Positions 2-29,754 of a stretch of 29,754 nt of DNA are shown here, piece by piece. Origin of the DNA: a virus; the IMG/VR virus record IMGVR_UViG_3300024518_003531, positions 1 to 29,754 of that record. One strand, 5' to 3'. The translations under genes were made by a program, and so were the position numbers. The notes beneath the pieces are model-generated. The model saw only the letters and a program-made list of their open reading frames with translations. It did no database searches and was not told the origin of the DNA. The stretch's first letter is position 1. Every line of letters starts with the position of its first letter.

Positions 2-2308
2 CCGCAGGGTAGCAAGATCGACGACTTCGAAATTAAACCCGACAACGAGATGCGCCGGTACCTGTATGTGTACCCGAAGAATGCGGACGACCTCGAGAAG
101 ATCTCCGAATACTTCATGACACCTGCGGTGGGTGGCGGGAAAGCGAACGAGACGTTCGCCCGCATGCGTGGCGTTGACGCACCTGAGGTGAACCCTGCGG
201 AGAACTTCCGGGCTGACCCGATCATCGGCGAGAAGATCGCTGTCGAGTACAGCCGTCTCCCCAAGTTCGTGACAAACGAGTCGGTTCGCCTGTCTTACGA
301 TTCGTTCATCCGAGACACCGTGGATCAGTTGCGGGAGATGGTGCAAGGGAATGGTGTCAGGGTGACGTTCACTGACGATGACCCTTACGGCAACATGCAA
401 GCCCTGTTTAGGGACCTCGACGAGAACAACCACATGTACGTCTTCAAGACCGAGGAAGGTATGAACCCTCTCATGGCAGACGAGTTGGATGTCTCTCTGT
501 TTGGCGACAACCTCGTGAACGAGGGTTCTACCGGTGTGATGCACAACGACATGTTCCGGGCGGTGCACGACTACTTCGGCCACTACGCTGCGAAGAACGA
601 TTTCAACCGGCACGGTGAGGAGCTCGCTTGGGCCCTCCACGCAGAACTGTACTCCGACGACGCCATGTCGGCGATGACATCAGAGGCTCGAGGGCAGAAC
701 GCCTACCTGAACTTCTCACCGGACAACCGGATCCCCCGAGACGCCTCCCCCTACGACTTGACGGCCACCGGGTCGGGATCTGGACCGAAGCCTGAAGCGC
801 AGCGGGTGGCGGAGATCGGATCGGATGCCCCTGGCATGATGCGTGTCCGGGTCCCACTCGAGGACGCCGACAGCATTCTGACCGACGGGTTCAAGCCGGA
901 CATCGCCAAGTCCCGTGGCGTGTCCGACCCGGCCCGTCGGGCGGTCGGCGAAGAAGCGCTTGGCGTGCCAGCGACAGCCGACCGGCCGGTGTTCGGGTAC
1001 CTCGGCGACGCCTACAGCCACAACGACACTGCCGGCTACGGTGAGATCGTCCTGCATGTGAAGCCGAAGGTGGCCGGCAGGGCCACCGTCACCTTCGGTG
1101 ACAGTCTCCAGGCTGCCGAAAGTCCCGGCGGTGTGCGCCCTGTCGGCGTAGACGCACTGGCCGGCGCCGACGACGCCGCCCTGTCCGCCGCCTCCGCCCC
1201 CCGTCCAGGCGCAGCCGACTCGACGGCCAAGAGGTACTACGAGGTCCAGTACCACGGTGGCCTCCAGCCGGAAGATCTTGCGAAGGTCGTGGAGTATTCA
1301 GCCGAGACGGCTGATGACTGGATCCAGCCTCCGGTGGCCTACCACAAGCTGGATCAGGCCGCCGACCTAGCCCGGAAGCATGACGCCAAACTGTTGGTCC
1401 AGGCGCCCCTGGACGGCAACACCGACGCCATGGATTCCTGGGTGGCCCGTGCACGTCAGGAAGGGTTGAACGTCGAGGTGGTTGACTCGTCGAAGGGCTC
1501 GAAGCGCAGCTCGCAGGGCCTCGGAAAGTTCATCGATCAGCGTGTCGCACCGACACCTGTCGAATGGGAAACCATGGGACGCTATGACACGTTGCAGTTC
1601 TCCAAGCCAGCCTCGACACGTCTAGCAGATTTGACCGGCGACGAGGTTCCAGAGATCCTGGTGTGGGGCGACCCTGAGTCGGGCGCACCACGAGGGTTCA
1701 AGAAAGCGCAGCAGCTCATATATTGGGACGGCGAGGAACAGTTCTCGACGTTGACCGGCAACATCGATGAGACCCGCCCGAACGGTCTCACCGTCTATGT
1801 GGGATCGGACTTCGGTCAAGAGTCCTTGTCCAAGTATTTCGCTAACGTGGAATCACCTTTGACAACTCCTGGGGTGAAGGGGTACGTCTTCGAACCTGAT
1901 GGCGGTGGTGGTGGAATGTTGGCCGGTATGGCGGAAATCCAGTTCGCTAAGACTGTCGACGAGGACATCATCGGACACGTCCACAAGGAACCGCAGCATG
2001 GTTTGACGGGCCTCCATTTCTCTAGTAAGCAGAATGTTGATATCGACGAGGGTCGTGTCAACCAGATGATTATCACCCACAGGGAAGAGGGTGTACCTCT
2101 TGTCGAGGTGGGGCACAAGAAGCGTGCACCGTTGCCGATGGAAACCGATGAAGGCACCGACAAGATTTGGTTGCAGCGTTCCGGTGCCGGCGCTTGGACC
2201 GTCAAGAAATATAAGGGGAGAGGTCAGCCCGTTTGGCTGATCGAGAAAGCCCGCACCGTACTAGACCACATTGGATCTGAATTCACAATGAAGGTAGCCC
2301 GCAAATGA
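2..2308 (+). CDS. Multidomain polyvalent/virion-associated protein, partial at 5' end
   Basis: The reading frame is open from base 2, so the gene starts outside the window; the first internal Met is at base 50, and residues below are numbered from it. Residues 1-235 resemble a domain found in large phage polyvalent proteins. Its hallmark is H165 and the FRAVHDYFGH motif (169-178), followed by GEE (189-191), H197 and an EARGQNAYLNF-like stretch. Residues about 250-370 end in a YGEIVLHVKP...TVTFGDSLQ pattern that resembles ART-like (DUF3626-type) domains of phage head-associated proteins; this is a motif impression only. Two further regions (about 400-490 and 510-710) are not recognised. The 4-base overlap with the next giant gene suggests co-production. 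A role as a virion-packaged or DNA-injected effector is inference. Confidence 0.6.
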   Translation, partial: PQGSKIDDFEIKPDNEMRRYLYVYPKNADDLEKISEYFMTPAVGGGKANETFARMRGVDAPEVNPAENFRADPIIGEKIAVEYSRLPKFVTNESVRLSYDSFIRDTVDQLREMVQGNGVRVTFTDDDPYGNMQALFRDLDENNHMYVFKTEEGMNPLMADELDVSLFGDNLVNEGSTGVMHNDMFRAVHDYFGHYAAKNDFNRHGEELAWALHAELYSDDAMSAMTSEARGQNAYLNFSPDNRIPRDASPYDLTATGSGSGPKPEAQRVAEIGSDAPGMMRVRVPLEDADSILTDGFKPDIAKSRGVSDPARRAVGEEALGVPATADRPVFGYLGDAYSHNDTAGYGEIVLHVKPKVAGRATVTFGDSLQAAESPGGVRPVGVDALAGADDAALSAASAPRPGAADSTAKRYYEVQYHGGLQPEDLAKVVEYSAETADDWIQPPVAYHKLDQAADLARKHDAKLLVQAPLDGNTDAMDSWVARARQEGLNVEVVDSSKGSKRSSQGLGKFIDQRVAPTPVEWETMGRYDTLQFSKPASTRLADLTGDEVPEILVWGDPESGAPRGFKKAQQLIYWDGEEQFSTLTGNIDETRPNGLTVYVGSDFGQESLSKYFANVESPLTTPGVKGYVFEPDGGGGGMLAGMAEIQFAKTVDEDIIGHVHKEPQHGLTGLHFSSKQNVDIDEGRVNQMIITHREEGVPLVEVGHKKRAPLPMETDEGTDKIWLQRSGAGAWTVKKYKGRGQPVWLIEKARTVLDHIGSEFTMKVARK

Positions 2309-5300
2309 TGCCCATGACCCCTGACCTTGCGTTCGGTGATACGGCTGCCACAGACCTGGCCTCCCCGGACCTCGCCATCGATTTCGGTGGGCTGGATCAG
2401 AAGTTGAGCGGCACCCGGGACGTCGATTCCGCAGCGGACTACCCAACTATCCCTGACCCGGTACGGTACGATCTTGCAATCGACCCTGCGTTCTCGTCGG
2501 CGGCCGACCTAAAGGGGTTCCTGTTTGGGTTGCAGGACGATGTTCGGGCTCTGGCTAACAGTCAGATGATGGACCCCGAAGAGGAACAATTCGCCAACTT
2601 CCAATACCAGTTGCCAGGGCAATCGTTCGATGTGCTCGCCAATCAGGGCCGTGGGCTCACCAACATTTCCGAGGGCAGGTCAGCAGCCCCGGACGACTTT
2701 AAGAGCCAGAGGTTCCTACCTCCTGGCTCCGCACTGAACGATGTCCGCCGTGGGATGGCCGGTCTTGGCGGCAAACAGTCAGCGGGCGTGTTCTCCGCAG
2801 ACGCCCCGACGCAGTGGAAGAACGAGGCGTTCGAACGTGGCCTTCTGACTGCTGACCAGTTGAATTCTAGGCATTGGTCGCCGACCCTGTATAAGCAGGT
2901 CAACTATGAGATGATGTCTCAACAGTTGACCGAGACGATGGGTGGAACTCGCACGGGCGCCATCTCTGCCGGTGTAGGTCAAGCTCACATTGATGGCGAA
3001 GAACAGGGCATGATGGGCCTGTTCGACAAATGGCTGTCACCGTCAGGGCTGATTGCTACAGCCGTGGCAATGGACTTCCTACCCGACTTCACTGCGATTC
3101 AAAGGGAGTCGCAGGAGTGGGGCAATAAGTGGCGGACATGGTGGGATAACCCAACGTCAGCCCGTGATTTTATTGATGCGGCCACAGGGCCCCTTGACGA
3201 CATCCTCTTCCCGGTTCTGAACACGGCGCTCCTGTTCTCAGGTGTAGGTCAGGTTGCGGTAGGTTTCCGTCTTGGGGTGACGGCCGGCCGGTTCGCTCAG
3301 ATGGGCCGTTCAGCAACCATGCTCGGTAAGGTTGGTTCGGGTGGCGGTAAGGTTGCTCGAGCGATGGGCATGGCAGAGGGTACAGTCCAATCCGGTTTGA
3401 ACATTATGAAAGAACAGTCGCTCATGGCTATGGGCGCATCAAAGATGGGTAGCTGGGGTGCTCCTGGCGGCAAGCTTGCCGCCAAGGGTATGGACGGGTG
3501 GAGGAAATTTCATTCCGTCCAGCAGGCGAAACTCGCCACTCGTGGCGGCATGCGGTTGGGTTTGGCCGGTAACGTGGAGACCTTCATCCTTCCTGAACGT
3601 AAAGGTGGTCACGGTTTAGTGCGTGGCGCTGGCACCGCTGAGGCTCAGGCTGCGGCCCGGGAGTGGCGTATAGACCCCTTGACCCCTCAGGGGGCAATCG
3701 CTATGGCTGCGGAAGTGATGTTCCAGCCGTCCCGCATATTCCTGCCGGGTACTATAACCAACTCGGTCAAGGGTGTCGGGCGGGTAGCTCGACGTTCAGT
3801 CGAATACGGTGAAGCGTCGAACCTGTTCGACAAACAGGTCGGACGGCTCGAGTACGCTCGAGGGTATTCCGACCAGGCTCAGGCGATGCAGACTAACCTC
3901 AGGGCTGTCGGTAACCGTGAGGAGCTCACTGGAGGATTTGCTGACTGGTGGCATGCCCGCATGCTTGACCGTGACGCCCAGCAAGCCCTAAACAAGTTGG
4001 AGCCAGGTAAGCGTGGGCTGGCCGCAGCTATGCTGTTGACTGACGCCGCCGAGATCGAGAAGTTCGCTGTCAAGATGGATAACCCTAAGGCGCTTGACGA
4101 CGCCAAGAAGAAGGCCGGCGAGTTTATGTTGTATGTGGTCGGGGGCGGCGCTGTGGACGCTGCGACTATGAGAAAGGCGATGTTGCTCGGCGTTCACAAC
4201 GATCAGGAAGCCTTCCTCCAGCTGCGCCGCTCACAGATGGCTTTGATAACTCCGGCCCGTGGACAGATCCTGCATGGGGTCACCTACGGTAAGCTGGCGG
4301 AGCTGCAAGAGCAAATAACGAAGGGGTCGTCAAAGTACCTCACCAAGGATAAGGCCCGCCATGCGGCAGAGGCTGAACTTGACGAGTACGCTGCCGAGTT
4401 CCGCCTCTTCGCTGAGGAGGACTTGGGGTACAAGTATCTGGACGACCTGGATGGTGCAGAGATCTCCCGTGCCCGCATGGAAGCGGGCGAAGATCCGCTA
4501 CCTAGCACAGCCTTCGAGGGTGAACAGAACGCCGTCAACATCAAAGAGATCAAAGCTCGAGAGATCAAAGCTATCACCGATCAGTTCGCCGACCCCCTGA
4601 GAGCGGACGACGCTATCGAGTCTATGAGTAAGCACATCAAGGACCACGAGGCTCAACGTCAGTTCCATTTCGAGCAGGTCCTCGCCGACTACGATGTCAC
4701 CCACCTGTCATCCTATCTGGATGATCTGGTGGATGGTGACGCCGACGTATTCAAACATTGGGACGAGTTCATGGAGGTCGACGACGTACTGTCGAGCGGC
4801 CAATTGAGCCTCGACGACATCCATCAACGTCCGGTTGCTGAGAACATCGGGCAGCAGGCGTCGGTGCGTTCCCCCGAGATGCAGAAGAGGCTCGAGGAGA
4901 TGGGGGAGCTCTCCTTCGAGGACGGCCGGTTCTCCATGTCCGAGCCACTCATGCGGGATCTCTCTGAGGAGATCCGCAAGCTACCCCTCCCCAAGTGGGC
5001 GAAGAAGATGGGCGTCCCTTCACACATGGTTGACGGGTATCGGAAGCCGATCACTCACTTGCAGTCGTCTACGTTGACGGCTGTCCGTCGTGACACCCCT
5101 GTGAAACAGGATTTGGATGCGATCGCTTTGATTGCCGGCCAGTTGCGTCGCATACATGAGCGTGTCACTCTTACCCCTCAGTACCGTCAGTATTCGGCGA
5201 AGCTCCGTCAGGCGGCGGAGGACTTCGAGCTGGGCACCTTTGACGACCTTTCCCCGGCCGACGTCGAGGCCGGGTTCGCTAATTGGTCTGACGATTCTGT

Positions 5301-8202
5301 CGTCAAATTTATGGCGTCGAAGGGATACAAAGAGCTAGGGTTGACCGGCACGAATAGGGAGCAGCGCAAGTTCGTTAAAGCTCTCCGCTGGATCGACGAG
5401 GCGGGCGGCGACATGGATGACCCCGGCGCTTGGGTCGCCAAGATGGAGCAGGATCTCCTCGGCTCCGACTTCGTGAAGAAGTTGAAATTCTCAGAGCCCA
5501 AAGACATCGCAGAGTTGGAGAAGTCTCTGGCGCAGCTGCGAAAGACGACTGCTTCGGAGATGGCGTTCGTAGCTGGATCTAAGGGGGCTGAGGACATTGA
5601 GGCGTTCCTCGCTGCCCGTGGGTACAAGCTGGCTCGTGGCGTCAGTTTCACTTCCTTAAACGACATGCGTTCCTTGAACGGGCCGTTCGCTATGATCCGC
5701 CAGTCGTCGATGAATCGCCGATCCCTCGGCCGGTTCTTCTCCAAGATGACCGAGCTGGACAAGATGAAGATAAGGGACCGGAATTTCCGGATCCTCATGG
5801 CCGACAAGATGGCGAAAGTGAAGCCGAACTGGACGGTCTACGACTCGGACGCCCTTCTTCGGGAGTTGACCGATGCGGTCCGCACTAACCGTGATGACTT
5901 GGAGAAGGCTCTCACGGAGGACGCTCAGGGTATCGCCCGTAGGTTCACTGGCCGTCTTCAAATGTCGATGTCAGCTCGCACCGCATTCGACTACGGATTC
6001 AAAGAGGGGGACATTGCCAAGTTCCTTCCTGAACTAGATTTCGAAACCCTGCAGGCCGTTAAGGGCTCTCTGATCCAGGCCAGGAAACTGGGTTGGGAGA
6101 AGAACGGGTTGCAGGATATAGAGAACATCCTGATCGAGCAACCGATGTTAAAGAAGATCCTCCGCACCTTTGATGCTACGGAGGCCGGCCGTGACCCGAT
6201 TGAGCGTGGCCGGATGGCCGCCATCTTGAAGGGCGACGAAAGATTCAAGACCGGTTGGGACGATTTCGCTGGCGCTAAACGGGCTGCGATTATGGCTGGA
6301 GGCGCTCTCGCCGGCGGCGCTATGAGCGAACGGCTTGGCGGCGAATGGTATGAGGGTGCTCTGTTCGGTGCTGGCGCTGCCGCCATTCCCGGTGCCGGCA
6401 GTGCTGTTGGTAAGAAGCTGATGGCTTCCGGGTCGAGTAAGACTATCAATTTCGGGGCGTCGTTGAAGAGGTACGGCGACTACAATCCGTTCTCAACTCG
6501 CACGCTTGCCCGTGGTGTCACAGGCTACGTCGGTGGCACTATCGGCAACAACATCGCCCCCGAGGATGACGGTCAGCAATCCGGTGCGATCATCGCTGGC
6601 ACCGTCTTGGGCGCCTTCGGCACACCCGGCATGTTCCGTGCTGGCGCTAAAGCCTACGACCTGTCTCAGCCTGCCGTTCTGGCAGCTACTGGCGGGAAGC
6701 TGGGCGGCCGAGACTACTCCCGTCTGGGGAGTTCGATGTTGCAGACCAGAGACTTTCTCCGGTTTACGATCAACCCTTGGTTCGACGCTCAGAGGTACTC
6801 TGAGGCTATCGTCATGGGGGCCACGAAAGATTGGGGTGACAGGGCCCTCCATCTGCCGTTCAACTACTCGCCGTCCAAGTCCCGCAAGATGCTGAAGCAG
6901 GGGAAGTTCAACACTGACGTGTTGGAGGACGCTCTCGAGCAGTCGATCGACGTGAACAACCCGAAAGCTTTCGAGAGTCAGATGGGTGCGGCCCTCAACG
7001 ATGCTAGCGGGGGCCGGATGAATCCGGACCTCATGGAAGCTACAACGAAACGGTTCACCGATGAGGGTGTCCTTGGGTTCTCCAACCACAGGTGGCAGAC
7101 GTGGGCTGCTACCCACCTTATCTCTCAGGGGATGCCTCTCAAAGAGGCGGCCGCTAAGGTTCAGGACCTATACTCCTACGGTAGGGCCGGCCGTTCAGCT
7201 GCCGAGCTGTCAGCAAACTTCGTGTTCTTCCCGTTCTCCTACATGAAGAAGTTCACCACGCAGGTGGGCACCTATTTGACGGATGACCTTTCGAGGGCTA
7301 TCATCCTGCATGACGGGTTGAAGGCGTATGAGACGTTGGATGAGAACTTCGATCTACAGGGGAAGATGGAAGCCCATCTCCCTGTTCTGAAAGAGTTGCG
7401 GACTTTGAACCCGCTGGCCTACGGGCTCTCTCCCGGACAATTGGGGGGTATCAACCGTCCCCTCTTGGATGTGGCGTACAACACCCCTATGGGTGACGCC
7501 GCACGGGACATTGCGAACGTCTTCCTACCGCAGGCTTTGCTGCTGGAAACACCAGAACAGCACAGTCAGGCGGAGGACCTCATGTTCAGGGCTGTGCCGG
7601 CAATCAGGCAGGCTCAACGTCTCCTTGAATCCCTAAAGGATCAAGGTAACGTCGCTACGTCCCCTTCCCATACTTCTAAGTCTGTCGAGATCGACAGGGG
7701 CATGGAGGAGCTCAGCGAGCTCCGTGAGCAGTTCAGCGGATACGCCGAGTCCCAAGGGATGACGCTCGATCAGGTGATGAGGACCAAAGAGTCGGGCTTT
7801 TCCGGTCAGCAAGGATCCAGGATCATCCTCAAACGCCAGTACAAGAACCGTGAGCGGCAAATTTCGCAGCGGTATCCGGCGATGGTGGCCGCCAGGTCCG
7901 AGTGGGTCTCTAAGCGTATAGCCCGGGATTCGGAGTTGAAGCAGATTGTTGATAGACCCAATCCGGCGGGGTTGTCCCGTGTTGAGCAGGCGGTTTGGAC
8001 GTTCGATCCGCTGGTCAAGCAGTTCCGTTCTGATATGGAGGCGGCCGGTTTGGGGGAAGGGGATGAGGACTTCTATCCTGATGACCTTCTTGGTGAGATC
8101 CGTCGAGTTGCTGTGGCGTTGGCTGCGGAAGAACCGTCTTTCGGTTCGTGGTACAACATTTACTGGGCGTCCGAGTTTGGCCCAATTGAGAGGGACATCT
8201 GA
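2305..8202 (+). CDS. Giant (1965 aa) internal virion-type protein
   Basis: The gene encodes a very large protein with no enzyme motif that I recognise. It has an acidic Asp/Ala/Leu-rich N-terminus and a hydrophobic Gly-rich stretch at about residues 290-370. Two more glycine/alanine-rich, possibly membrane-interacting segments lie at about 1325-1375 and 1400-1455. A FFPFSYMKKF motif falls near residue 1645, and the C-terminus is charged, helical and coiled-coil-prone. The size, the amphipathic segments and the position with other large structural genes suit an internal core/ejection protein of a podovirus, comparable in role to T7 gp15/gp16, but I see no homology to those. A lytic transglycosylase motif was looked for and not found. 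It starts inside the stop of the preceding gene (ATGA); a second in-frame ATG follows immediately at 2308. Confidence 0.6.
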   Translation: MMPMTPDLAFGDTAATDLASPDLAIDFGGLDQKLSGTRDVDSAADYPTIPDPVRYDLAIDPAFSSAADLKGFLFGLQDDVRALANSQMMDPEEEQFANFQYQLPGQSFDVLANQGRGLTNISEGRSAAPDDFKSQRFLPPGSALNDVRRGMAGLGGKQSAGVFSADAPTQWKNEAFERGLLTADQLNSRHWSPTLYKQVNYEMMSQQLTETMGGTRTGAISAGVGQAHIDGEEQGMMGLFDKWLSPSGLIATAVAMDFLPDFTAIQRESQEWGNKWRTWWDNPTSARDFIDAATGPLDDILFPVLNTALLFSGVGQVAVGFRLGVTAGRFAQMGRSATMLGKVGSGGGKVARAMGMAEGTVQSGLNIMKEQSLMAMGASKMGSWGAPGGKLAAKGMDGWRKFHSVQQAKLATRGGMRLGLAGNVETFILPERKGGHGLVRGAGTAEAQAAAREWRIDPLTPQGAIAMAAEVMFQPSRIFLPGTITNSVKGVGRVARRSVEYGEASNLFDKQVGRLEYARGYSDQAQAMQTNLRAVGNREELTGGFADWWHARMLDRDAQQALNKLEPGKRGLAAAMLLTDAAEIEKFAVKMDNPKALDDAKKKAGEFMLYVVGGGAVDAATMRKAMLLGVHNDQEAFLQLRRSQMALITPARGQILHGVTYGKLAELQEQITKGSSKYLTKDKARHAAEAELDEYAAEFRLFAEEDLGYKYLDDLDGAEISRARMEAGEDPLPSTAFEGEQNAVNIKEIKAREIKAITDQFADPLRADDAIESMSKHIKDHEAQRQFHFEQVLADYDVTHLSSYLDDLVDGDADVFKHWDEFMEVDDVLSSGQLSLDDIHQRPVAENIGQQASVRSPEMQKRLEEMGELSFEDGRFSMSEPLMRDLSEEIRKLPLPKWAKKMGVPSHMVDGYRKPITHLQSSTLTAVRRDTPVKQDLDAIALIAGQLRRIHERVTLTPQYRQYSAKLRQAAEDFELGTFDDLSPADVEAGFANWSDDSVVKFMASKGYKELGLTGTNREQRKFVKALRWIDEAGGDMDDPGAWVAKMEQDLLGSDFVKKLKFSEPKDIAELEKSLAQLRKTTASEMAFVAGSKGAEDIEAFLAARGYKLARGVSFTSLNDMRSLNGPFAMIRQSSMNRRSLGRFFSKMTELDKMKIRDRNFRILMADKMAKVKPNWTVYDSDALLRELTDAVRTNRDDLEKALTEDAQGIARRFTGRLQMSMSARTAFDYGFKEGDIAKFLPELDFETLQAVKGSLIQARKLGWEKNGLQDIENILIEQPMLKKILRTFDATEAGRDPIERGRMAAILKGDERFKTGWDDFAGAKRAAIMAGGALAGGAMSERLGGEWYEGALFGAGAAAIPGAGSAVGKKLMASGSSKTINFGASLKRYGDYNPFSTRTLARGVTGYVGGTIGNNIAPEDDGQQSGAIIAGTVLGAFGTPGMFRAGAKAYDLSQPAVLAATGGKLGGRDYSRLGSSMLQTRDFLRFTINPWFDAQRYSEAIVMGATKDWGDRALHLPFNYSPSKSRKMLKQGKFNTDVLEDALEQSIDVNNPKAFESQMGAALNDASGGRMNPDLMEATTKRFTDEGVLGFSNHRWQTWAATHLISQGMPLKEAAAKVQDLYSYGRAGRSAAELSANFVFFPFSYMKKFTTQVGTYLTDDLSRAIILHDGLKAYETLDENFDLQGKMEAHLPVLKELRTLNPLAYGLSPGQLGGINRPLLDVAYNTPMGDAARDIANVFLPQALLLETPEQHSQAEDLMFRAVPAIRQAQRLLESLKDQGNVATSPSHTSKSVEIDRGMEELSELREQFSGYAESQGMTLDQVMRTKESGFSGQQGSRIILKRQYKNRERQISQRYPAMVAARSEWVSKRIARDSELKQIVDRPNPAGLSRVEQAVWTFDPLVKQFRSDMEAAGLGEGDEDFYPDDLLGEIRRVAVALAAEEPSFGSWYNIYWASEFGPIERDI

Positions 8203-23421: not shown

Positions 23422-24015
23422 ATGGCCGTTCCACCGATGTCACCGCATTCGCCGAGGAATTCCGCTGGCCGTAGTGGTCGGCTCACAAATCTGCTCCCAT
23501 GTAGCGGCCGCCGATGTGAGGTTGCAGCTAGGGTCCTTGCTGGCGTCGTTCTGGTTCTACTTCTGGTCACCTTCGTGACGCAGGTGTCCTGGTTCTGGCC
23601 TCACTCGTCGATCAGTCAGCCGTCCGCACTCTTCTCCACCGAGCACACGTCCGAAGGGATACCAGTGTACCGGGTCGGCGGAGAGATCCGCTACACGACA
23701 TCCATCCAGAACGACGGCGTGGACATCACAGCGGTACGCTGGTTGGACAGGTACTCCCCAAGGGGCGAACCTGACGGGATCGCCGACACGGTGCAATCAG
23801 AGCTGTGGTTGCGGCTCGAGAAGTTCCCCATCGACCAGAGGGTAGACCTAAAGGACATCCCTGTGACAGTGGAGATTTCCGGCCCTATCGACGTGCCCGG
23901 ATACTACAAGCTGCGTACCGAGAACATGTACAATGCGAACGCTCTACACACACACACGAACGAAACGGAGACCGGACTGTTCTACCTGACAGACCCGGGC
24001 TCACCGATACCGTAG
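23422..24015 (+). CDS. Single-pass membrane protein with beta-rich ectodomain
   Basis: The 197-residue protein has a Pro/Ser/Arg-rich cytoplasmic N-terminus (1-33) and one hydrophobic helix (about 34-57, VAARVLAGVVLVLLLVTFV). The extracytoplasmic domain has 'IPVYRVGGEIRYTTSIQNDG', 'ELWLRLEKFPIDQ' and 'VPGYYKLRTENMYN', strands reminiscent of an immunoglobulin-like fold. I do not recognise the family. Its place between an XhlA-like and a holin-like gene suggests an envelope role: a lysis helper, spanin-like bridge, or superinfection-immunity factor. It starts one base after the preceding stop. The N-terminal two Met codons (23422 and 23437) are both possible starts. Confidence 0.45.
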   Translation: MAVPPMSPHSPRNSAGRSGRLTNLLPCSGRRCEVAARVLAGVVLVLLLVTFVTQVSWFWPHSSISQPSALFSTEHTSEGIPVYRVGGEIRYTTSIQNDGVDITAVRWLDRYSPRGEPDGIADTVQSELWLRLEKFPIDQRVDLKDIPVTVEISGPIDVPGYYKLRTENMYNANALHTHTNETETGLFYLTDPGSPIP

Positions 24016-24024
24016 GAGAAACAC

Positions 24025-24213
24025 ATGATCGAATGGTTTAGCAAAGAACGCAACAGGGCGATAGTGTACCGTGTACTCGTCGCCGTCGTACCACTACTAC
24101 TCGCAGCAGGGTGGATCTCAGAAGAGGTCTCCGTGCAAGTTCTCGGTATCGCTACCGCAGTGTTCGGAGGCGTCCTCGCCTCTGGTAACACGTCGTTGAA
24201 CCCGCCGGACTAA
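24025..24213 (+). CDS. Holin-like small membrane protein
   Basis: This is 62 residues with two hydrophobic segments (about 16-29 and 36-52) joined by a short turn 'GWISEE'. It opens with a charged W-F-S-K-E-R-N-R-A-I-V-Y-R segment and ends with 'GGVLASGNTSLNPPD'. The R-x-x-(I/V)Y-R...PLL...G pattern is recurrent in small actinobacteriophage membrane proteins often called holins. Two helices, small size and the lysis context fit a holin that permeabilises the membrane for a muralytic enzyme. It has GGAG (24015-24018) seven bases upstream of the ATG. It is the last gene of the + arm. Confidence 0.6.
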   Translation: MIEWFSKERNRAIVYRVLVAVVPLLLAAGWISEEVSVQVLGIATAVFGGVLASGNTSLNPPD

Positions 24214-24344
24214 ACCTTCGGTATGTTCTCGGGACGCAAACGGAGCGGGCTGCCTTGGTTGGCCCGCTCTAATGCGTTCCTGTTCAACCATTTCTTGTCG
24301 ATGCCTAGACGGACCCACTGTTCAAAGTGGGCCCGTTCACTCAT
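24210..24344 (-). CDS. Small terminal protein of the - strand operon (44 aa)
   Basis: The 44-residue ORF has a pattern MSERAHFEQWVRLGIDKKWL followed by a basic tail. The W-V-x-L-G-I-x-K-x-W element resembles tiny proteins of actinobacteriophages with unknown role. Its ATG overlaps the upstream gene's stop by eight bases (ATGAGTGA, 24344-24337), the same junction as elsewhere. Its stop (24212-24210) overlaps the stop of the convergent holin-like gene. A longer open frame to 24656 is the out-of-frame shadow of the coiled-coil gene and was not used. Confidence 0.5.
   Translation of the reverse strand: MSERAHFEQWVRLGIDKKWLNRNALERANQGSPLRLRPENIPKV
24243..24269. terminator. Candidate bidirectional hairpin between convergent arms
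   Basis: GAGCGGGC (24243-24250) and GCCCGCTC (24262-24269) form a perfect eight-pair GC-rich stem with an 11-base loop, about 30 bases after the stop of the + arm. It can fold in transcripts from either strand. No good U-run follows on either side, so intrinsic termination is uncertain. It lies inside the coding part of the 44-residue - strand ORF. Confidence 0.45.
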
Positions 24345-24861
24345 CGGTATCTGACTCGCTGACATTGGGTCCTCCAAAGATTTCGTCGGCGGAGTCTTCC
24401 CACCATGGTTGGAGTGCGATGGGTCGACGTCCGGCCCAGTCGTCTCGTTCTGTGAGGTCGGCGTTGAACTCCCAGCCGGCAGCGTAGAGCTCACCGAGCT
24501 CAGCTTCGGTTTGTTCGATGACCCATTCGTCGGTGCCGGCTTGCGTGCCGACCGGGGCTTCTCTCCCAATTTCGATGGACGCTTGTATCCGGGCGAGCGC
24601 CCTGATGAGTTCGGTGTTCGCTGCTTTGATTCCGAGGATGTACGTTTGGGCGGCATTCCTCAGCTCCACGTTCTCTGCGTACAGTTCAGCGTTCTCGTCA
24701 CTGAGGGCCTCTTCGTTTGCGCTGAACGTCTCCTCCAATCGCCAGTGGGCGACCGTCTCGGCTAATGCGGACAGGAGTACCCACAAGTCCCGTCGCATAC
24801 TGGTCCGACCTTCGCCCTTCCCCATGATCTTTCGGACGTGCGATCCAATCCAGCTCGTCAT
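24337..24861 (-). CDS. Coiled-coil hypothetical protein
   Basis: This is 174 residues from the first ATG. Residues about 25-95 form a long Glu/Ala/Leu-rich helix with heptad character (ANEEALSDENAELYAENVEL, 'AANTELIRALARIQ'). A Trp/Asp-containing C-terminal region ends in an acidic tail. I do not recognise a function. Two starts are possible. ATG 24861 has GGAGGAG ten bases upstream but overlaps the preceding gene by 164 bases. ATG 24798 (MRRDLW) shortens the overlap to about 100 bases and begins where the helix-like sequence starts, but has a weaker binding site. The region before residue 22 looks like the shadow of the upstream gene. Confidence 0.55.
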   Translation of the reverse strand: MTSWIGSHVRKIMGKGEGRTSMRRDLWVLLSALAETVAHWRLEETFSANEEALSDENAELYAENVELRNAAQTYILGIKAANTELIRALARIQASIEIGREAPVGTQAGTDEWVIEQTEAELGELYAAGWEFNADLTERDDWAGRRPIALQPWWEDSADEIFGGPNVSESDTDE

Positions 24862-25012
24862 CAGTGAACGTCTCCTCCAACGGGGTTACAAGACCCCGTG
24901 CTATCTTGTCAAGGTAGTAGGGGTTGCAGGTGTCTTCGGTGTTGTCTTCGCAGTACCGGCAGATGCGTGGCTGATGCACACATTCGCCGTCGTATAGGCA
25001 GTCGTCAGCCAT
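24698..25012 (-). CDS. Cys-rich, putative zinc-binding small protein (overlapping 3' end)
   Basis: The 104-residue protein has five cysteines near the N-terminus (C5, C11, C18, C21, C29) including a C-R-Y-C pair, which suggests a zinc knuckle. The next segment, LVTPLEETFTDDELDWIARPKDHG, looks like genuine coding sequence. The last about 45 residues are Arg/Gly-rich and coincide with the start of the coiled-coil gene in another frame, so the C-terminus may be poorly constrained. The ATG lies in an eight-base overlap (ATGGCTGA, 25012-25005) with the HTH gene. A regulatory or nucleic-acid-binding role would fit but is unproven. Confidence 0.5.
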   Translation of the reverse strand: MADDCLYDGECVHQPRICRYCEDNTEDTCNPYYLDKIARGLVTPLEETFTDDELDWIARPKDHGEGRRSDQYATGLVGTPVRISRDGRPLAIGGDVQRKRRGPQ

Positions 25013-25292
25013 CGGTGTCTACCTCTAGGTCTACAGCGAGGAGGCTGGTCGCTACTTCCAGGGTTGTCTTCACCTTATGCCTCGACCATCCGAACGTGTT
25101 AGCTATGGATCTGATCGACCGGCGTTCGTAGTAGAACGCTTCGACGAGCTCACGGTACGGTTCGTCGAGACGGTCGACGGCTTCGCCGACCTCCTCGAAC
25201 GTCTTCAATGCCGCTACCGGTTCAGGCATACCCATGTCGTCTAGGACTGCCGGGTCAATCGTGAAACCGTGGAGCCTTTCCCTGTCGCTCAC
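25005..25292 (-). CDS. Sigma-70 region-4-like HTH protein
   Basis: The 95-residue protein has a C-terminal half that reads as a helix-turn-helix of sigma region 4 type. LDEPYRELVEAFYYER (42-57) matches the lead-in helix of 'L-x-x-x-x-R-x-x-h', then SIRSIANTFGWSRHKVKTTLEVA (59-81) is the HTH with 'I-A...G-W-S...V'. The preceding region is acidic and has no region-2 sequence, so it cannot be a complete sigma factor. Phages use such proteins as late-gene activators or terminase-linked regulators. It starts with GTG (25292), overlapping the kinase stop as GTGA. It may switch on the opposite late arm; that is inference. Confidence 0.6.
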   Translation of the reverse strand: MSDRERLHGFTIDPAVLDDMGMPEPVAALKTFEEVGEAVDRLDEPYRELVEAFYYERRSIRSIANTFGWSRHKVKTTLEVATSLLAVDLEVDTDG

Positions 25293-25894
25293 AGGATGCC
25301 GGCATCTTTGAGGGTGACGTCATCGAGTATAGACACGGCGCCGTCGTTGATGATGAAGTCGTCTACCCATTCGTAGAGCTCGTCGATGTCGCCGTCGTTG
25401 CGGTGAACGTAATCGAAGTCCGCTTCGGTGAGCGACTCGGACCGCAGATCTGCCTGCGGTGAGCCTTCCCGGGTGAGGCAGATGTTGCGGCCACCGGTCT
25501 GACGGACGAACCTTACCTCGTCGAGGAAACGGACATCTGAGATCACGACATCTTTCCCTTGGTTGCGGACCTTGGCGACCTGTTCCGCTATGGCCCAGAT
25601 CCACACGTCAGGGTGGGTGTGCCTACGCACCTCGACTCCGACATCGATGAGAGCTTTGCGGACCTCGAGGTCTTCCTTGGCTTCCTCCCAGTTGGTGTGG
25701 TACACGGCGTCGGCGACGTCCGGGTAGAGGGCGGACGTGAGGGCTCTCACGTTGTCGGCGAATGCGAACTGCACCCAGCCGTGTTCGCCGACAAGGTATT
25801 CGGCTACCGTGTCTTTGCCGACACGTTGCGTGCAGCCTAGACCGAGGAGCCGCCCTTTGAGGCGCCTATTCTGTACGTTCGTTGGAACTTGCAT
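25289..25894 (-). CDS. Deoxynucleoside monophosphate kinase
   Basis: The 201-residue P-loop kinase has the Walker A variant GCTQRVGKDT (residues 20-29; K27) near the N-terminus, followed by 'FADNVRAL'. Downstream are the central helix region 'ALIDVGVEVRRHTHPDVWIWAI', a Walker-B-like strand 'DVVISDVRFLDEV', and a late 'NDGDIDELYEWVDDFI'. This matches phage dNMP kinases of the T4 gene 1-like family, which phosphorylate dNMPs to supply DNA synthesis. I chose ATG 25894 because AAAGGA lies about six bases upstream; an in-frame ATG at 25921 lacks a binding site. The gene overlaps the upstream membrane-protein gene by 29 bases. Confidence 0.85.
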   Translation of the reverse strand: MQVPTNVQNRRLKGRLLGLGCTQRVGKDTVAEYLVGEHGWVQFAFADNVRALTSALYPDVADAVYHTNWEEAKEDLEVRKALIDVGVEVRRHTHPDVWIWAIAEQVAKVRNQGKDVVISDVRFLDEVRFVRQTGGRNICLTREGSPQADLRSESLTEADFDYVHRNDGDIDELYEWVDDFIINDGAVSILDDVTLKDAGIL

Positions 25895-26033
25895 CGTCGT
25901 CCTTTCGGGACCAGTTGACATCGAAGATTAGTTCTAGTAGAGAGAGTAGCCAGACTATGGCTGCGCCTGCGAATACGAGGATGCTGAATGAGATCGCTAT
26001 GCTCAGTAGCCAGAGGATCCAGTCGACGATCAT
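25866..26033 (-). CDS. Small membrane protein (55 aa)
   Basis: A hydrophobic N-terminal two-thirds (about residues 1-38, DWILWLLSIAISFSILVFAG and on to LLSLLEL) could form one or two transmembrane helices. It is followed by a charged tail (SRKDDDASSNERTE). Function is unknown; a holin/antiholin or a membrane-targeting factor is possible. The start at 26033 forms an ATGA overlap with the nuclease gene. A longer frame upstream is a shadow of that gene. Confidence 0.5.
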   Translation of the reverse strand: MIVDWILWLLSIAISFSILVFAGAAIVWLLSLLELIFDVNWSRKDDDASSNERTE

Positions 26034-26560
26034 ACCTGTCCGATCCCTCTGCCTAGGCATGCGGATGATTTCCATGGGAGCTCGGGGAGTTCTTGCATAA
26101 TGATCGGGTTGATCTCGTCGAGGTCGTTTAGCTGGCGGAACTCGGTGAGGTCTACGACCCATTTGCCTTTGCCTTGCCTGTTGATCCGGGCTCGCCGGCA
26201 TGCGATGACTTCCCAGATGGGTGCGAGGAAGCAGCGGTTGAGGGGTACGTCTCGGAGGAGGAAGTAGACTGCCGGCCAGTGTCGGACGCCACGACGAACC
26301 GATAGTTCGTCGAGTACGAACAGGTTCTCCGGTTCGACACCTTCGAGTAGGTGCCAGCGGTCTGTTAGCGGCTGCCGTTTCTCTTTGACTTCTAGGTAGT
26401 AGCCGGGTACCCAGATGTCGAGGTCGTCGTTGTGGCTGAACCGTTGGATGTGTTCGACGCCTTGTTCGGCGAGCTGTGCGCCTACTTCTTCCTCGAATAT
26501 TCTTGCGGTTGCGAAGTCTGCTGAGGGTGATCCTGGGGGTCTGCTGTATCCTTTAACCAT
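26030..26560 (-). CDS. PD-(D/E)XK-like nuclease family protein
   Basis: The 176-residue protein has a motif core DLDIWVPGYYLEVKEK (residues 46-61). D48, E57 and K59 give the D...ExK signature of the PD-(D/E)XK fold, and an upstream helix (about 17-33) contains E23-E25. Later strands ('PENLFVLDELS', 'PAVYFLLRDVP') fit the same alpha/beta fold. Such small phage proteins are often holding or repair nucleases, but no specific family was recognised. ATG 26560 has AAAGGG upstream and the recurrent eight-base overlap (ATGGTTAA) with the preceding gene. The long upstream in-frame extension to 26773 is Ser/Thr-rich shadow. Confidence 0.6.
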   Translation of the reverse strand: MVKGYSRPPGSPSADFATARIFEEEVGAQLAEQGVEHIQRFSHNDDLDIWVPGYYLEVKEKRQPLTDRWHLLEGVEPENLFVLDELSVRRGVRHWPAVYFLLRDVPLNRCFLAPIWEVIACRRARINRQGKGKWVVDLTEFRQLNDLDEINPIIMQELPELPWKSSACLGRGIGQV

Positions 26561-26765
26561 TGTCTGCCCTTTCGACTCTTGCGAGTGCGTCGTTGATGAG
26601 TGTGCGGACCCCGAGTTCGAGGTGTGATTCGCCCCATTTGGTGGCGTAGTTGAGGCCCCATTGGGTGACGACTGGTTCGACGTCGGGCACTGGTTGCCCG
26701 TTGCCGGCGAGCGGTTCGATGGTGAGCCGGAACTGTAGGTTCCGTTTCGTTTTAGAAGGCGGCAT
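26553..26765 (-). CDS. Hypothetical protein (70 aa)
   Basis: The protein has a basic N-terminus, a beta-like 'LQFRLTIEPLAGNGQPVPD', and a C-terminal helical 'LGVRTLINDALARVERADNG'. I recognise no family. Coding status is supported by a continuous junction pattern: a 14-base overlap with the DUF4406 gene upstream and an eight-base overlap with the nuclease gene downstream. No strong Shine-Dalgarno is visible, so translation probably depends on coupling. Confidence 0.55.
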   Translation of the reverse strand: MPPSKTKRNLQFRLTIEPLAGNGQPVPDVEPVVTQWGLNYATKWGESHLELGVRTLINDALARVERADNG

Positions 26766-27132
26766 CGATCCACTGTTTCACGGTGAGGACAGGTATGTTT
26801 ACCGCATTGGCGGCGGCTACCTCGGCCATGGCACCGCTGGATTTCGTCCAGCCGGGGAGGGTTGCCACACCGGACGCCTCTGTGCAGATGACGGCGAGGT
26901 CGTTGGCGAGGGTGGCCCTACGGTCGAAGCCTACGAGGTCGGCGAGGTCTTCGGTGCCGTCCATGTCTTGAACGTCGAGTGTGGGGTATTGCTCCTCGTC
27001 CATTTCGACGGGGGAGATGACCTCGTACCCTGCTTCACGGAGCTCGGACGTGCAGTGTCTGAACTCTGGGAAGTTCCATTCGTGGATCCCGGACATGGGG
27101 CCCGCTATGTAGAGGATGTGTGGCTGGCTCAT
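26752..27132 (-). CDS. DUF4406 / nucleoside 2-deoxyribosyltransferase-like protein
   Basis: The 126-residue protein begins with YIAGPMSGIHEWNFPEF (residues 8-24), the hallmark of DUF4406 phage proteins, and ends in 'DLAVICTEASGV', 'LPGWTKSSGAMAEVAAA', 'IPVLTV'. The LPGW...S-GA-x-E pattern is that of the nucleoside 2-deoxyribosyltransferase fold, in which the Glu is the catalytic nucleophile; here it lies in the GAMAE segment. These enzymes exchange or remove bases from deoxynucleosides or nucleotides. With the dNMP kinase it suggests nucleotide-pool remodelling. The start at 27132 has AGGAG eight bases upstream and an ATGA overlap with the resolvase gene. Confidence 0.75.
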   Translation of the reverse strand: MSQPHILYIAGPMSGIHEWNFPEFRHCTSELREAGYEVISPVEMDEEQYPTLDVQDMDGTEDLADLVGFDRRATLANDLAVICTEASGVATLPGWTKSSGAMAEVAAANAVNIPVLTVKQWIDAAF

Positions 27133-27479
27133 TCGGTTGGCTCCTGGTTGTCGTAGTAGCATTGGAGTAGTTCTTCTGCGAACTCGATGTCGAGGACTGC
27201 TATCTGTCCGATCTGTTTCGAGTAAATGGTTCGCATGTCTCTGGGGGAGATGAGGATGACCCATCGGTGGTCGGATGCTACCGCCCGGATCTTCCGGATC
27301 CAGTCGGGTATGCCCCATGTCTTGCGGCATTTCGCTTCGACTGGTATGGGCTGTCCGTGGAAGTCGTTGGACGGTGTGGTTGGGGCTGAACGGTCGACGT
27401 GTTCCCCCCAGATTCGTTGGAGTCGGGGTAGGCATTCGTTCTCCCATTCTGTTCCGATACGTTTGGACGGGTTGCTCAT
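27129..27479 (-). CDS. Holliday-junction resolvase-like PD-(D/E)XK endonuclease
   Basis: The 116-residue protein begins SNPSKRIGTEWE (residues 2-13), typical of small resolvase-like nucleases in actinobacteriophages. It is followed by an active-site set E13, D39 and E48-x-K50 (PIPVEAKC). The length and layout match archaeal-Hjc/phage resolvase proteins that cut branched replication and recombination intermediates before packaging. The canonical 'DGDI' is replaced by N-D-F-H-G. The start at 27479 has GGAG nine bases upstream and overlaps the primase stop as ATGA. The in-frame upstream extension to 27962 is primase shadow. Confidence 0.7.
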   Translation of the reverse strand: MSNPSKRIGTEWENECLPRLQRIWGEHVDRSAPTTPSNDFHGQPIPVEAKCRKTWGIPDWIRKIRAVASDHRWVILISPRDMRTIYSKQIGQIAVLDIEFAEELLQCYYDNQEPTE

Positions 27480-28414
27480 GCGAATGGTCTCCATTGGTTG
27501 GCGGTTGCTTCTGCTACCCGTCCGCCGGGTACGGGTAGGATCTCTACCCCTGAAGGGCCACGAAGCCAGAGGGCTTCGAGGATGGCTTCGGTTGCTTCGA
27601 CGCCGGCTTTGTCCTCGTCGCCGTTGTCTTTCTGCGTGTCGAGTGCGAGGTAGATGTGCTTGTATAGGCCGAGCTCGCTGATGATCGATTCGGGGTGGTG
27701 GCCTGCCCCTGAGGGTAGACCCACGGCTTCTATGTCGGGCTTGTCTGTCAGCTGTGCGGCCATGCACCATGTATCCGATTCGCCTTCGCATAGGACTGCC
27801 ATCTCTGCCCGTGCGTGTGGCGCACGGTAGAGGCGAGGGTAGGTGGACCCTTTGAGGGCTTTCTTGTCGGTGTTGAGCCAGAACCTTGTCTTCACACCGT
27901 TGCAGTGTAAGCCGTCCATGTCCGTGTACCAGTGTGGTATCCACAGATGTTGGAGCGTCCACCCTAGGTGGAAGTGGGTGGTGGGGGAGAAGAGGTCTCC
28001 ACTGGGCCCGTTAGCCACACCGGGCCAGCGAGCTTGGATCCACCCGTCGCAGGTCTCCGGTCTCTCGTCGACCTCTGTCTGAACTCGCCGCAGGAAGTCG
28101 ACGGCTTCTTTGACCTTGCGCCGACCAACCCCGTCCCCTTCAATGGGTTCGAGGCCGGTCGACAGGATCCAGCGCACCGCCCGACCAAAGCTGCAACCGA
28201 AATAGGTTTTAACTAGGTCGATGGTGTCGCCGCCGGTAGCGCAACAGTATGCACGCCACCGGTTCTCATTCTCGTACACCTGAACTGAGGGGGTGTACTC
28301 CTCATGCTGCCAGCAGAACGTCTTACCGTCCCGGCTGAGAGGCTCGAGATCGAGGGCCTCTATCACGTCGAGGATGGGGATACGTTTGGCGTCTTCGAGG
28401 TCAGTCGGTTCCAT
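27476..28414 (-). CDS. dnaG-like: DnaG-type primase
   Basis: The 312-residue protein has a CHC2-type zinc domain: C34-x2-H37, then E38-E39-x-T41-P42-S43, then 'WRAYCCATGGDTIDLV' (53-68), matching the DnaG pattern including GGD. A connector of about 130 residues leads to a TOPRIM core with the acidic loop 'LCEGESDT' (E210, E212) and 'YLALDTQKDNGDEDKAG' (D259 and following acidic residues). It is shorter than bacterial DnaG and lacks the helicase-interacting C-terminal domain, like many phage primases. The second zinc pair is compressed: C57 and C58 are adjacent, where C-x2-C is usual. It makes RNA primers for the helicase encoded upstream. ATG 28414 has GGGAG seven bases upstream. Confidence 0.85.
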   Translation of the reverse strand: MEPTDLEDAKRIPILDVIEALDLEPLSRDGKTFCWQHEEYTPSVQVYENENRWRAYCCATGGDTIDLVKTYFGCSFGRAVRWILSTGLEPIEGDGVGRRKVKEAVDFLRRVQTEVDERPETCDGWIQARWPGVANGPSGDLFSPTTHFHLGWTLQHLWIPHWYTDMDGLHCNGVKTRFWLNTDKKALKGSTYPRLYRAPHARAEMAVLCEGESDTWCMAAQLTDKPDIEAVGLPSGAGHHPESIISELGLYKHIYLALDTQKDNGDEDKAGVEATEAILEALWLRGPSGVEILPVPGGRVAEATANQWRPFA

Positions 28415-28658
28415 CGTATGTCTCCCACGTTGTGCCCTTGAAGCGTAGCATCATACGCTTCCAGAGTGGCAATTGTTTCCAGTCGAGGTAACGCAGCATG
28501 GGCAGTCGCATCAGCAGCCGCTCCCCGCCCATGTCATCGAGCTCGAAGCGCCATACTGGTTGACGGTGTACAAAGCTACGGCGTCCTGAACCCAGCCGGG
28601 TGCGTACTTTGCTCGACTGTATCCGGGGTGCCCTGCTCGTGCGCTCATCGTCCGCCAT
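28401..28658 (-). CDS. Small hypothetical protein overlapping the muralytic lipoprotein gene
   Basis: From ATG 28658 this gives 85 residues, of which the first 50 lie in another frame of the lipoprotein gene. The last about 45 residues (WRFELDDMGGERLLMRLPML and a W-K-Q-L-P-L-W-K-R helix) look more like coding sequence. An internal ATG at 28532 would give a 43-residue product and reduce the overlap to 22 bases, though without a clear binding site. The stop makes a 14-base overlap with the primase start. Function unknown; the basic, Leu-rich C-terminus could bind membrane or nucleic acid. Confidence 0.4.
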   Translation of the reverse strand: MADDERTSRAPRIQSSKVRTRLGSGRRSFVHRQPVWRFELDDMGGERLLMRLPMLRYLDWKQLPLWKRMMLRFKGTTWETYDGTD

Positions 28659-28951
28659 GTACCGTCGATAAACTGGTAGGCTCCTGAGGCCGAGGAAGTG
28701 CCGTTCTGTGCTGCGTAGCCATTCCCGTGAGGATACGGTCCACGGTCTGATTCGTGATGACGTATGCACACTAGGGTTGGGTGCCGGCTCGGGCTCCATT
28801 GTGGTTTCGTCCCGTTGAGTTCGGGGTGCCTCTGGTTGACTAGCTGCTGTTGTTCCGGTGTGAGGGTCAGGTATGCTGCCACCTCTGCGGGGGTGCACGC
28901 TGTCAGGAAGACCCCTAAAGCCAGGATCGCTGTTAGTAGGATTCGTTTCAT
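28511..28951 (-). CDS. Rpf/transglycosylase-like muralytic lipoprotein
   Basis: The 146-residue protein has an N-terminal lipoprotein signal: K2-R3, hydrophobic core 4-15, lipobox L16-T17-A18-C19. A helical stretch (20-45) and linker follow. The catalytic domain contains C62-I-R-H-H-E67-S-D (E67 catalytic candidate), 'YAAQNGTSSASGAYQFIDGTWRTM' and 'GYSRAKYAPGWVQDAVALYTV', ending 'GSGC'. This is the lysozyme-fold Rpf/transglycosylase-like pattern of actinobacteria, cleaving peptidoglycan glycan strands. A lipobox is unusual for a phage endolysin and implies export by the host and anchoring outside the membrane. AGGAG lies nine bases upstream of ATG 28951. It lies among replication genes, far from the holin-like cluster. 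Confidence 0.75.
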   Translation of the reverse strand: MKRILLTAILALGVFLTACTPAEVAAYLTLTPEQQQLVNQRHPELNGTKPQWSPSRHPTLVCIRHHESDRGPYPHGNGYAAQNGTSSASGAYQFIDGTWRTMSARAGHPGYSRAKYAPGWVQDAVALYTVNQYGASSSMTWAGSGC

Positions 28952-28957
28952 TGGTGT

Positions 28958-29188
28958 TCACTCCTGCCCCCAGTTGTATCGCTCGACATCTTCGAGCTCT
29001 GTGCGGGGTCGGGGCTTGCTCCGCTTAGATTCGTTGTAGGCTGTTGCTTCTTCGACGTAGCGGTCCCATGCTTCTTCGCCTGCTTCGCCTTCGTCTTCTC
29101 TGGTGAGGTATAGGCGCATCGCTACATGGTAGGCGACGGGTGCGAGTAGTGTGGCAGCTAGGGCTGCCGCCGATAGTAAGCCTCTCAT
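28958..29188 (-). CDS. Small membrane-anchored protein (76 aa)
   Basis: The N-terminal hydrophobic segment (about residues 1-24, GLLSAAALAATLLAPVAYHV) acts as a signal anchor or transmembrane helix. It is followed by an acidic/basic soluble tail with 'EDEGEAGEEAWDRYVEEATAYNESKRSKPRPRTELEDVE'-like composition. Function unknown. It starts at the ATG inside the ATGA junction at 29188, and ends six bases before the muralytic lipoprotein gene, so the two envelope proteins may work together. Confidence 0.5.
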   Translation of the reverse strand: MRGLLSAAALAATLLAPVAYHVAMRLYLTREDEGEAGEEAWDRYVEEATAYNESKRSKPRPRTELEDVERYNWGQE

Positions 29189-29358
29189 CGGTCGCCACCG
29201 TAGATACCTCCAGCGGTGCACCGATAGCAGTGCACGGCGTCAACATCGCCGGGTTTTGTGTCTTCCCAGTACCAAGCGTGGCGGGTTATTTGCCACCACT
29301 TCTTAGGCTTGTCACACGCCACGAAGACGTGCCTTGATTCGGGGTCTGGTGTGCTCAT
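29185..29358 (-). CDS. Small Cys-containing protein (57 aa)
   Basis: The protein is rich in Trp and Lys (PKKWWQITRHAWYWED) and ends with HCYRCTAGG, a C-x2-C knuckle, plus an upstream Cys at residue 15; this could bind zinc. Function unknown. The ATG at 29358 shares one base with the helicase stop (TGATG) and has AGAGG eight bases upstream. The long in-frame extension to 29718 is helicase shadow. Confidence 0.5.
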   Translation of the reverse strand: MSTPDPESRHVFVACDKPKKWWQITRHAWYWEDTKPGDVDAVHCYRCTAGGIYGGDR

Positions 29359-29754
29359 CAGAATGCCTCTTGATTGTAGTTGTCGGATCGTTTCAGCGGG
29401 CGGATCCGCCCTGAACGAGTGTTGATTCTGTGTTCCACACCTTGAGGGTGTGTCTGATCTCCGCCACGAGTCTTCAAGAACTGCATGAAGAACTCGCCCT
29501 TGTGGAACTCCATCTGATCGAAGGTGAGCTCGGGGTCGAGGTGCGGGCGGTACGCTCCGAGCACATAGTCGGCGGCTTCTTCGCCGCCGTACTTCCCTGA
29601 CTGTAGGGTCAGTGGCATATGCCCATCGTTCTGCAACGGCTTGCCGTCCTTCTGCCCCATCTTCCCTCGGGGCACCTGATGTAGGACGAAGACGTGGACG
29701 TCCATGCGTCGGGCCCACCGCTTGATGTCCTTTGACAGGTCGGACACCTGCGAT
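29358..29754 (-). CDS. DnaB-type replicative helicase, C-terminal part (5' end outside window)
   Basis: The frame is open at the right edge, so only the last about 130 residues are seen. 'DLSKDIKRWARRMDVHVFVLHQVPRG' is the DnaB/SF4 pattern in which a helix is followed by strand and H-Q-(V/L). 'MPLTLQSGKYGGEEAADYVLGAYRP' is the following region, comparable to the motif H4 area where duplex-unwinding helicases have a D-L-x-x-S or similar. The Walker A and B lie upstream of the window. The protein would unwind the fork with the primase encoded about 1 kb downstream. A RecA-like recombinase is the alternative; I favour helicase because of the primase partner and the R-x-P-x-(K/L) context. Confidence 0.6.
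   Translation of the reverse strand, partial: SQVSDLSKDIKRWARRMDVHVFVLHQVPRGKMGQKDGKPLQNDGHMPLTLQSGKYGGEEAADYVLGAYRPHLDPELTFDQMEFHKGEFFMQFLKTRGGDQTHPQGVEHRINTRSGRIRPLKRSDNYNQEAF

Follow-up and report, generated by a model that had tools for sequence, protein, structure and literature searches.

A putative lipid-anchored, Rpf-like muralytic enzyme in a phage that also carries an amidase endolysin and a holin

A virus represented by a 29,754-base record (the window, meaning the whole stretch of DNA that was analysed) encodes a short protein, P0001, in which a lipoprotein signal is joined to an Rpf/transglycosylase-like domain. P0001 is a real, well-supported molecule and, judged by its sequence and the conservation of that sequence, it is a predicted lipoprotein. 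P0001 is probably a helper enzyme, given that an ordinary endolysin and a holin are encoded by the same virus. We propose with moderate confidence that it is a phage-borne, lipid-anchored, Rpf-like muralytic enzyme, probably host-derived, which would loosen the cell wall ahead of lysis by the amidase. The same virus is present in two further records, G001 (99.96-99.98% identical to the window) and G002 (about 99.9% where the two overlap), and no near DNA match of the window was found among public phages.

Gene, lipoprotein signal and predicted fold

As outlined in Table 1, the lipoprotein gene is located between the genes of a DnaB-type helicase and a primase, and the preliminary description was right in placing it among replication genes. 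A full copy of the helicase gene is found in G002 (L010 6324-7229, PF03796 E 1.4e-23). The lipoprotein gene is preceded by a GGAG ribosome-binding site, and the small ORFs on both sides of it (87 residues and 36 codons) look translationally coupled with it. Early synthesis of P0001, previously put forward as a possibility, is suggested solely by the minus strand and the neighbouring genes, and because the lipoprotein and the amidase endolysin are encoded on one strand, gene position does not separate the two proteins in time. A promoter scan of positions 24000-29754 revealed no sigma-70 consensus sites, and terminators in the same scan were at chance level.

Table 1 Positions of the lipoprotein gene, its parts, its neighbours and the other lysis genes (window coordinates unless stated otherwise).
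Feature	Position	Strand	Remarks
Lipoprotein gene P0001	28951..28511	minus	146 aa + stop, Rpf/transglycosylase-like; ORF and translation
Signal peptide and predicted lipidated Cys, MKRILLTAILALGVFLTAC	28895..28951	minus	lipobox LTAC; C19 codon 28897-28895
Tether, residues 20-54	28790..28894	minus	contains TPAEVAAYLTLTPEQQQLV motif
Catalytic domain, residues 55-146	28514..28789	minus	Rpf-like lysozyme fold, predicted
E67 codon, predicted catalytic acid	28751..28753	minus	invariant; aligns with Glu of gp144 and RpfC
C62 codon	28766..28768	minus	invariant in alignment; possible disulfide partner of C146
C146 codon	28514..28516	minus	invariant in alignment; possible disulfide partner of C62
Small membrane-protein ORF, 87 aa	28958..29221	minus	GTG start; stop 6 nt before lipoprotein start
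36-codon ORF	28403-28513	minus	overlaps lipoprotein stop (TGATG); runs into primase start
Primase, CHC2 zinc finger	27476..28414	minus	PF01807 E 4.7e-9; next downstream gene of known function
DnaB-type helicase, C-terminal part	29358..29754	minus	runs off window
Holin, 62 aa	24025..24213	plus, late-gene strand	phrog_565 E 2.9e-9, phrog_6116 E 1.2e-8
XhlA/holin-like small membrane protein, 71 aa	23205..23420	plus	weak phrog_689 holin E 0.037
Amidase endolysin, 271 aa	G002/L010 1404-2219 (window-equivalent 34368-35183)	minus	without signal peptide

The N-terminus of P0001, MKRILLTAILALGVFLTAC, reads as two basic residues (K2 and R3), a hydrophobic core and the lipobox LTAC ending in C19, so that the basic n-region, the hydrophobic core and the lipobox cysteine of bacterial lipoproteins are all present. 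With its signal peptide and lipobox, P0001 differs from a canonical endolysin, which has no signal peptide and is released by a holin. C19 is followed by a tether of about 40 residues, whose TPAEVAAYLTLTPEQQQLV motif is common to the aligned phage relatives as TPEE[IV]AxYxT[ML]xPxEQxAV and which is partly helical, with modest confidence, in the full-length structure model. The C-terminal domain comprises the motif CIRHHESD, which holds E67, followed by SSASGAYQFIDGTW, APGWVQDAVALY and W.GSGC.

In Rpf and its related enzymes a single glutamate serves to cut the glycan strands. The Rpf family profile PF06737 scores 15.9 bits on P0001 alone and thus stays below the Pfam gathering cut-off of 27; it is matched by 31 of the 32 relatives at E<=0.1 (best E 1.9e-7). 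P0001 itself matches the phrog_90 endolysin at E 8.5e-6. When 53 diverse domains were combined into a profile, it hit phiKZ gp144 (E 5e-7); the hits to lambda lysozyme and RpfC/RpfE were weaker (E 0.01-0.03). In the profile alignment E67 coincides with the glutamate of the gp144 'IES' and of the RpfC 'CES', and the putative catalytic residue stands in an ES...Y context.

The AlphaFold2 model of residues 55-146, calculated for the isolated domain from an alignment of 53 rows, reached a pLDDT of 85.8 and a pTM of 0.80. A comparison with Rpf structures, as proposed in the preliminary description, put the Rpf domains closest. The top match was RpfB (4emn, Z 10.3, 2.2 A over 75 residues), RpfB, RpfC and RpfE together were the best structural matches (Z 9.5-10.3; next family 7.4), and lambda lysozyme and gp144 ranked after them (Z about 7). 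Foldseek E-values for the domain model were modest (best 0.005), and no informative fold match was obtained with the full-length model (pLDDT 68). Among viral proteins the best match (56% identical) was a 137-residue 'Transglycosylase-like' protein from an uncultured phage.

The domain is predicted to adopt the Rpf lysozyme-like fold, and P0001 shares with RpfB, RpfC and RpfE of Mycobacterium tuberculosis the fold, the catalytic glutamate and the likely nature of an exported actinobacterial wall enzyme. It deviates from them in being a lipoprotein, in its sub-threshold Pfam score, in an 8-residue insert (DRGPYPHG) after the Glu motif and in its first conserved cysteine, C62, which is located five residues before E67 and is adjacent to the glutamate in Rpf. 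C62 and C146, both invariant, possibly form a disulfide, by analogy with Rpf domains. phiKZ gp144 and lambda lysozyme likewise have a lysozyme fold, and their catalytic region aligns with that of P0001, but they are canonical phage lysins without a lipoprotein signal. Previously, a lysozyme-fold domain with E67 preceded by LTAC had been recognised, and the ORF, the alignment and the domain model bear this out; the proposed lipid-anchored, Rpf/transglycosylase-like wall enzyme is supported by the lipobox, the conserved cysteine and a glutamate at the predicted catalytic position.

Conservation, host homologues and origin

Relatives were gathered by scanning IMG/VR and GTDB contigs, and full-length proteins from 25 viral loci and 12 MAG loci were examined, two of the viral loci belonging to the species of the window. 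In 37 of 37 sequences a hydrophobic segment ending in a cysteine was found upstream of the catalytic domain. The spacing between this cysteine and the C62 position was 36-54 residues in 36 sequences; the exception is G003 with 12. The lipobox is canonical in P0001 and most relatives (FTAC, VAAC, LAAC, LTGC) and deviates in one clade with Ser at position -3 (SVSC, SIGC) and in G003 (GSSC). Within a 32-sequence alignment of phages and Acidimicrobiia genomes C19, C62, E67, S68, Y79, N83, S86, ASGAYQ (88-93), W99, Q122, D123, W141 and C146 were invariant. Between close phage pairs dN/dS varied from 0.05 to 0.27, indicating purifying selection on the lipoprotein in these relatives. Taken together with the invariant columns, the alignment of E67 and the structural matches to Rpf, these values argue that the lipoprotein is more than a chance reading of the sequence.

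A WhiB gene in G004 (PF02467) and WhiB-like ORFs in further relatives point to actinobacterial hosts. L098 is carried by the Microthrixaceae MAG G019, and for 25 of 33 genomes of that family a lipoprotein match at E<=1e-10 was obtained, nearly all with one copy per genome and covering the full profile. The neighbours of the MAG homologues are desaturase, P-type ATPase, VIT1 and superoxide dismutase genes, and in view of this synteny they are considered chromosomal rather than prophage-borne. The chromosomal Microthrixaceae lipoproteins (L098, L099, L096, L105) resemble P0001 in the lipobox, the tether, the CxRxHESDR motif and the whole catalytic domain, but most have a longer N-terminal extension, and they possess an acidic linker (VPDFNGDG...).

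The catalytic domain of P0001 is up to 71% identical to MAG proteins and about 67% to the nearest phage protein, and its tether motif agrees with the phage clade. In the tree the MAG genes group together with modest support; regarding the date of capture, the phage rows need three changes, the deep forks are weak and long branches meet, so that direction and number of transfers are not fixed. Probably, the phage gene was taken from a Microthrixaceae-type host of the Acidimicrobiia. The host assignment of the virus is drawn from homologues only and is hence likewise putative; a phage copy of a mostly single-copy Acidimicrobiia wall lipoprotein ties these viruses to likely hosts.

The domain was also seen, with the pattern ESxxxYxAxxxSxASGAYQFxDxTW, inside many long tail/tape-measure-type proteins of viral contigs (L039, L040, L043-L094) and is consequently common to probable virion lysins and to the lipoproteins. 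Many of the 263-268 related loci are of this virion/tail type; for P0001 such an assignment was rejected, as the protein is short and has a lipobox and its gene is not part of the structural arm.

Lysis genes and proposed role of the lipoprotein

The sibling record G002 extends 6.8 kb past the right end of the window and contains the gene of a 271-residue amidase endolysin, which exhibits the motifs HWWG and HRDWKSTGCPG, a PG_binding_1 domain (1.1e-14) and a match to the phrog_1493 endolysin (E 3.9e-33). The amidase gene is on the replication-gene strand and the holin gene stands apart on the late-gene strand; the lysis genes of this phage are therefore split. The holin-like gene that the preliminary description had located on the other arm is confirmed by its phrog_565 match. 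That description had further seen no other endolysin and had named a canonical endolysin elsewhere as the finding that would refute its model. For the 29.7 kb window alone the observation stands; for the virus it does not, since the search beyond the window found the amidase just outside it.

Similar enzymes accompany the lipoprotein in most relatives: 12 of the 15 larger lipoprotein-carrying contigs have an amidase or an M15 endolysin-type enzyme, with Amidase_2 in nine and an M15 peptidase in three more (PF13539 8e-12 in G005; homologues in G008 and G010). Neither type of enzyme was found in G004, G011 and G013, all of these records being possible fragments. The amidase gene lies 2-3 kb from the lipoprotein gene on the opposite strand in G007, G009, G014 and G017, and can be tens of kb away in other relatives; in four relatives a homologue of the window's holin is close to the amidase. 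As the lipoprotein gene does not share a cassette with the holin and its distance from the endolysin gene varies in this way, gene position does not compel a role in lysis.

A few phages are known to have exported accessory lysins. The Kayvirus enzyme Tgl is secreted; it is a transglycosylase with homology to autolysins of the host, is expressed from an early promoter and works beside LysK, lysis occurring only after pore formation or membrane depolarisation (PMC7150955). P0001 resembles Tgl as a phage-encoded, presumably exported, transglycosylase-type homologue of an exported host wall enzyme that coexists with a canonical endolysin and a holin. P0001 carries the lipobox LTAC, whereas the signal peptide of Tgl is of type I (AXA) and Tgl is released; the host of Tgl is Staphylococcus, and that of P0001 probably belongs to the Actinomycetota. 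The domain is also shared by a 'hydrolase' of Streptomyces phages (Beuffert gp16, Gilson; 46% over residues 62-124) that also have a LysM-like endolysin; this protein differs in lacking a lipobox, in its long charged stalk and in coming from large-genome phages. A direct report of a lipid-anchored phage lysin or of an Acidimicrobiia phage transglycosylase was not found in the open-access literature searched. P0001 is best read as a lipid-anchored variant of the exported accessory phage lysins, i.e. a lipoprotein counterpart of the Kayvirus Tgl.

Proteins with a lipobox receive their lipid from Lgt and are cleaved by LspA. Following this route, P0001 would be exported by Sec, lipidated at C19 by the host Lgt, cleaved by LspA and anchored on the outer face of the membrane, where E67 would protonate and cut the MurNAc-GlcNAc glycan strands of the inner wall. 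P0001 alone would not lyse the cell but weaken or remodel the wall during infection, until the holin collapses the membrane potential and the amidase endolysin finishes lysis. This role would be the one proposed for Tgl beside LysK, with the enzyme held on the cell by its lipid instead of being released. Because bacteria carry the same kind of protein, P0001 is presumably not freely lethal. Milder functions as an accessory lysis factor or in wall remodelling may apply.

The original proposal, in which P0001 serves as the lysin of the phage and acts without a holin, is favoured by its export signal and predicted catalytic domain. The amidase of the 99.9% identical sibling, the holin of the window and the presence of the same kind of protein on bacterial chromosomes speak against it; holin-free lysis by P0001 as the sole lysin is rejected in view of the amidase and the holin, and a part as the main lysin is scarcely credible. 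The main rival of a helper in lysis is a growth or resuscitation factor of the phage, which would sustain growth of the host wall and prevent dormancy of the cell so that replication can go on. This is a real possibility, if clearly the less probable one: the closest fold is Rpf, homologues are common host lipoproteins (25/33 genomes), the gene is placed among replication genes, and upon infection of Rhodococcus by phage WC1 four of six host rpf genes were upregulated, which the authors link to preventing dormancy (PMC10986025); however, no resuscitation activity is known for the lipoprotein clade and the cysteine spacing differs from that of classic Rpf.

Superinfection exclusion, by which a lipoprotein outside the membrane changes the wall or keeps the DNA of a second phage from entering, ranks below an anti-dormancy function and is regarded as unlikely. 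Several phage lipoproteins, among them Ltp of TP-J34 and Llp of T5, act in this way (PMC3952083, PMC9586334), and a lipid anchor would suit such a task at the cell surface, but these proteins need neither a conserved catalytic glutamate nor an Rpf fold, and a non-exhaustive look at the window noticed no lysogeny genes. It is very improbable that P0001 is merely a captured passenger without a strong role in the phage: homology to a host core gene would fit, but the gene is kept in many divergent phage contigs, with cysteine and glutamate intact and under the purifying selection described above. We also consider, as a doubtful generalisation, that a widespread class of actinobacterial phages uses a captured, membrane-tethered, Rpf-like core lipoprotein of the host to govern the condition of its wall during infection, by growth upkeep or exclusion of rivals, separately from lysis. 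The preferred reading remains a wall-loosening helper of the amidase, and the question raised by P0001 is whether a phage borrows a growth enzyme of its host as a preparation for lysis, to maintain growth of the host or to exclude competing phages.

Further features of the virus and its relatives

In G005 a second small ORF (L177, 18841-19122, minus strand) begins with MRKLLLIVALLAAAGCGSEYDNG; it is lipoprotein-like and lies near holin-like genes. At the end of the window opposite to the G002 extension, G001 adds portal- and terminase-like genes, which were assigned by eye. Two very large proteins of 1703 and 1965 residues are encoded at 2-8202 of the window (plus strand), continuing in G001 (L009 8377-13488, minus strand). 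Their location, with the portal-like gene on one side and the major capsid protein on the other, is unusual for genes of this size; they are possibly internal virion proteins. At the end of G001 (L009 18280-18737) about 450 GC-rich bases with many short repeats and without a clear gene are found beside the terminase-like gene, possibly representing a genome end.
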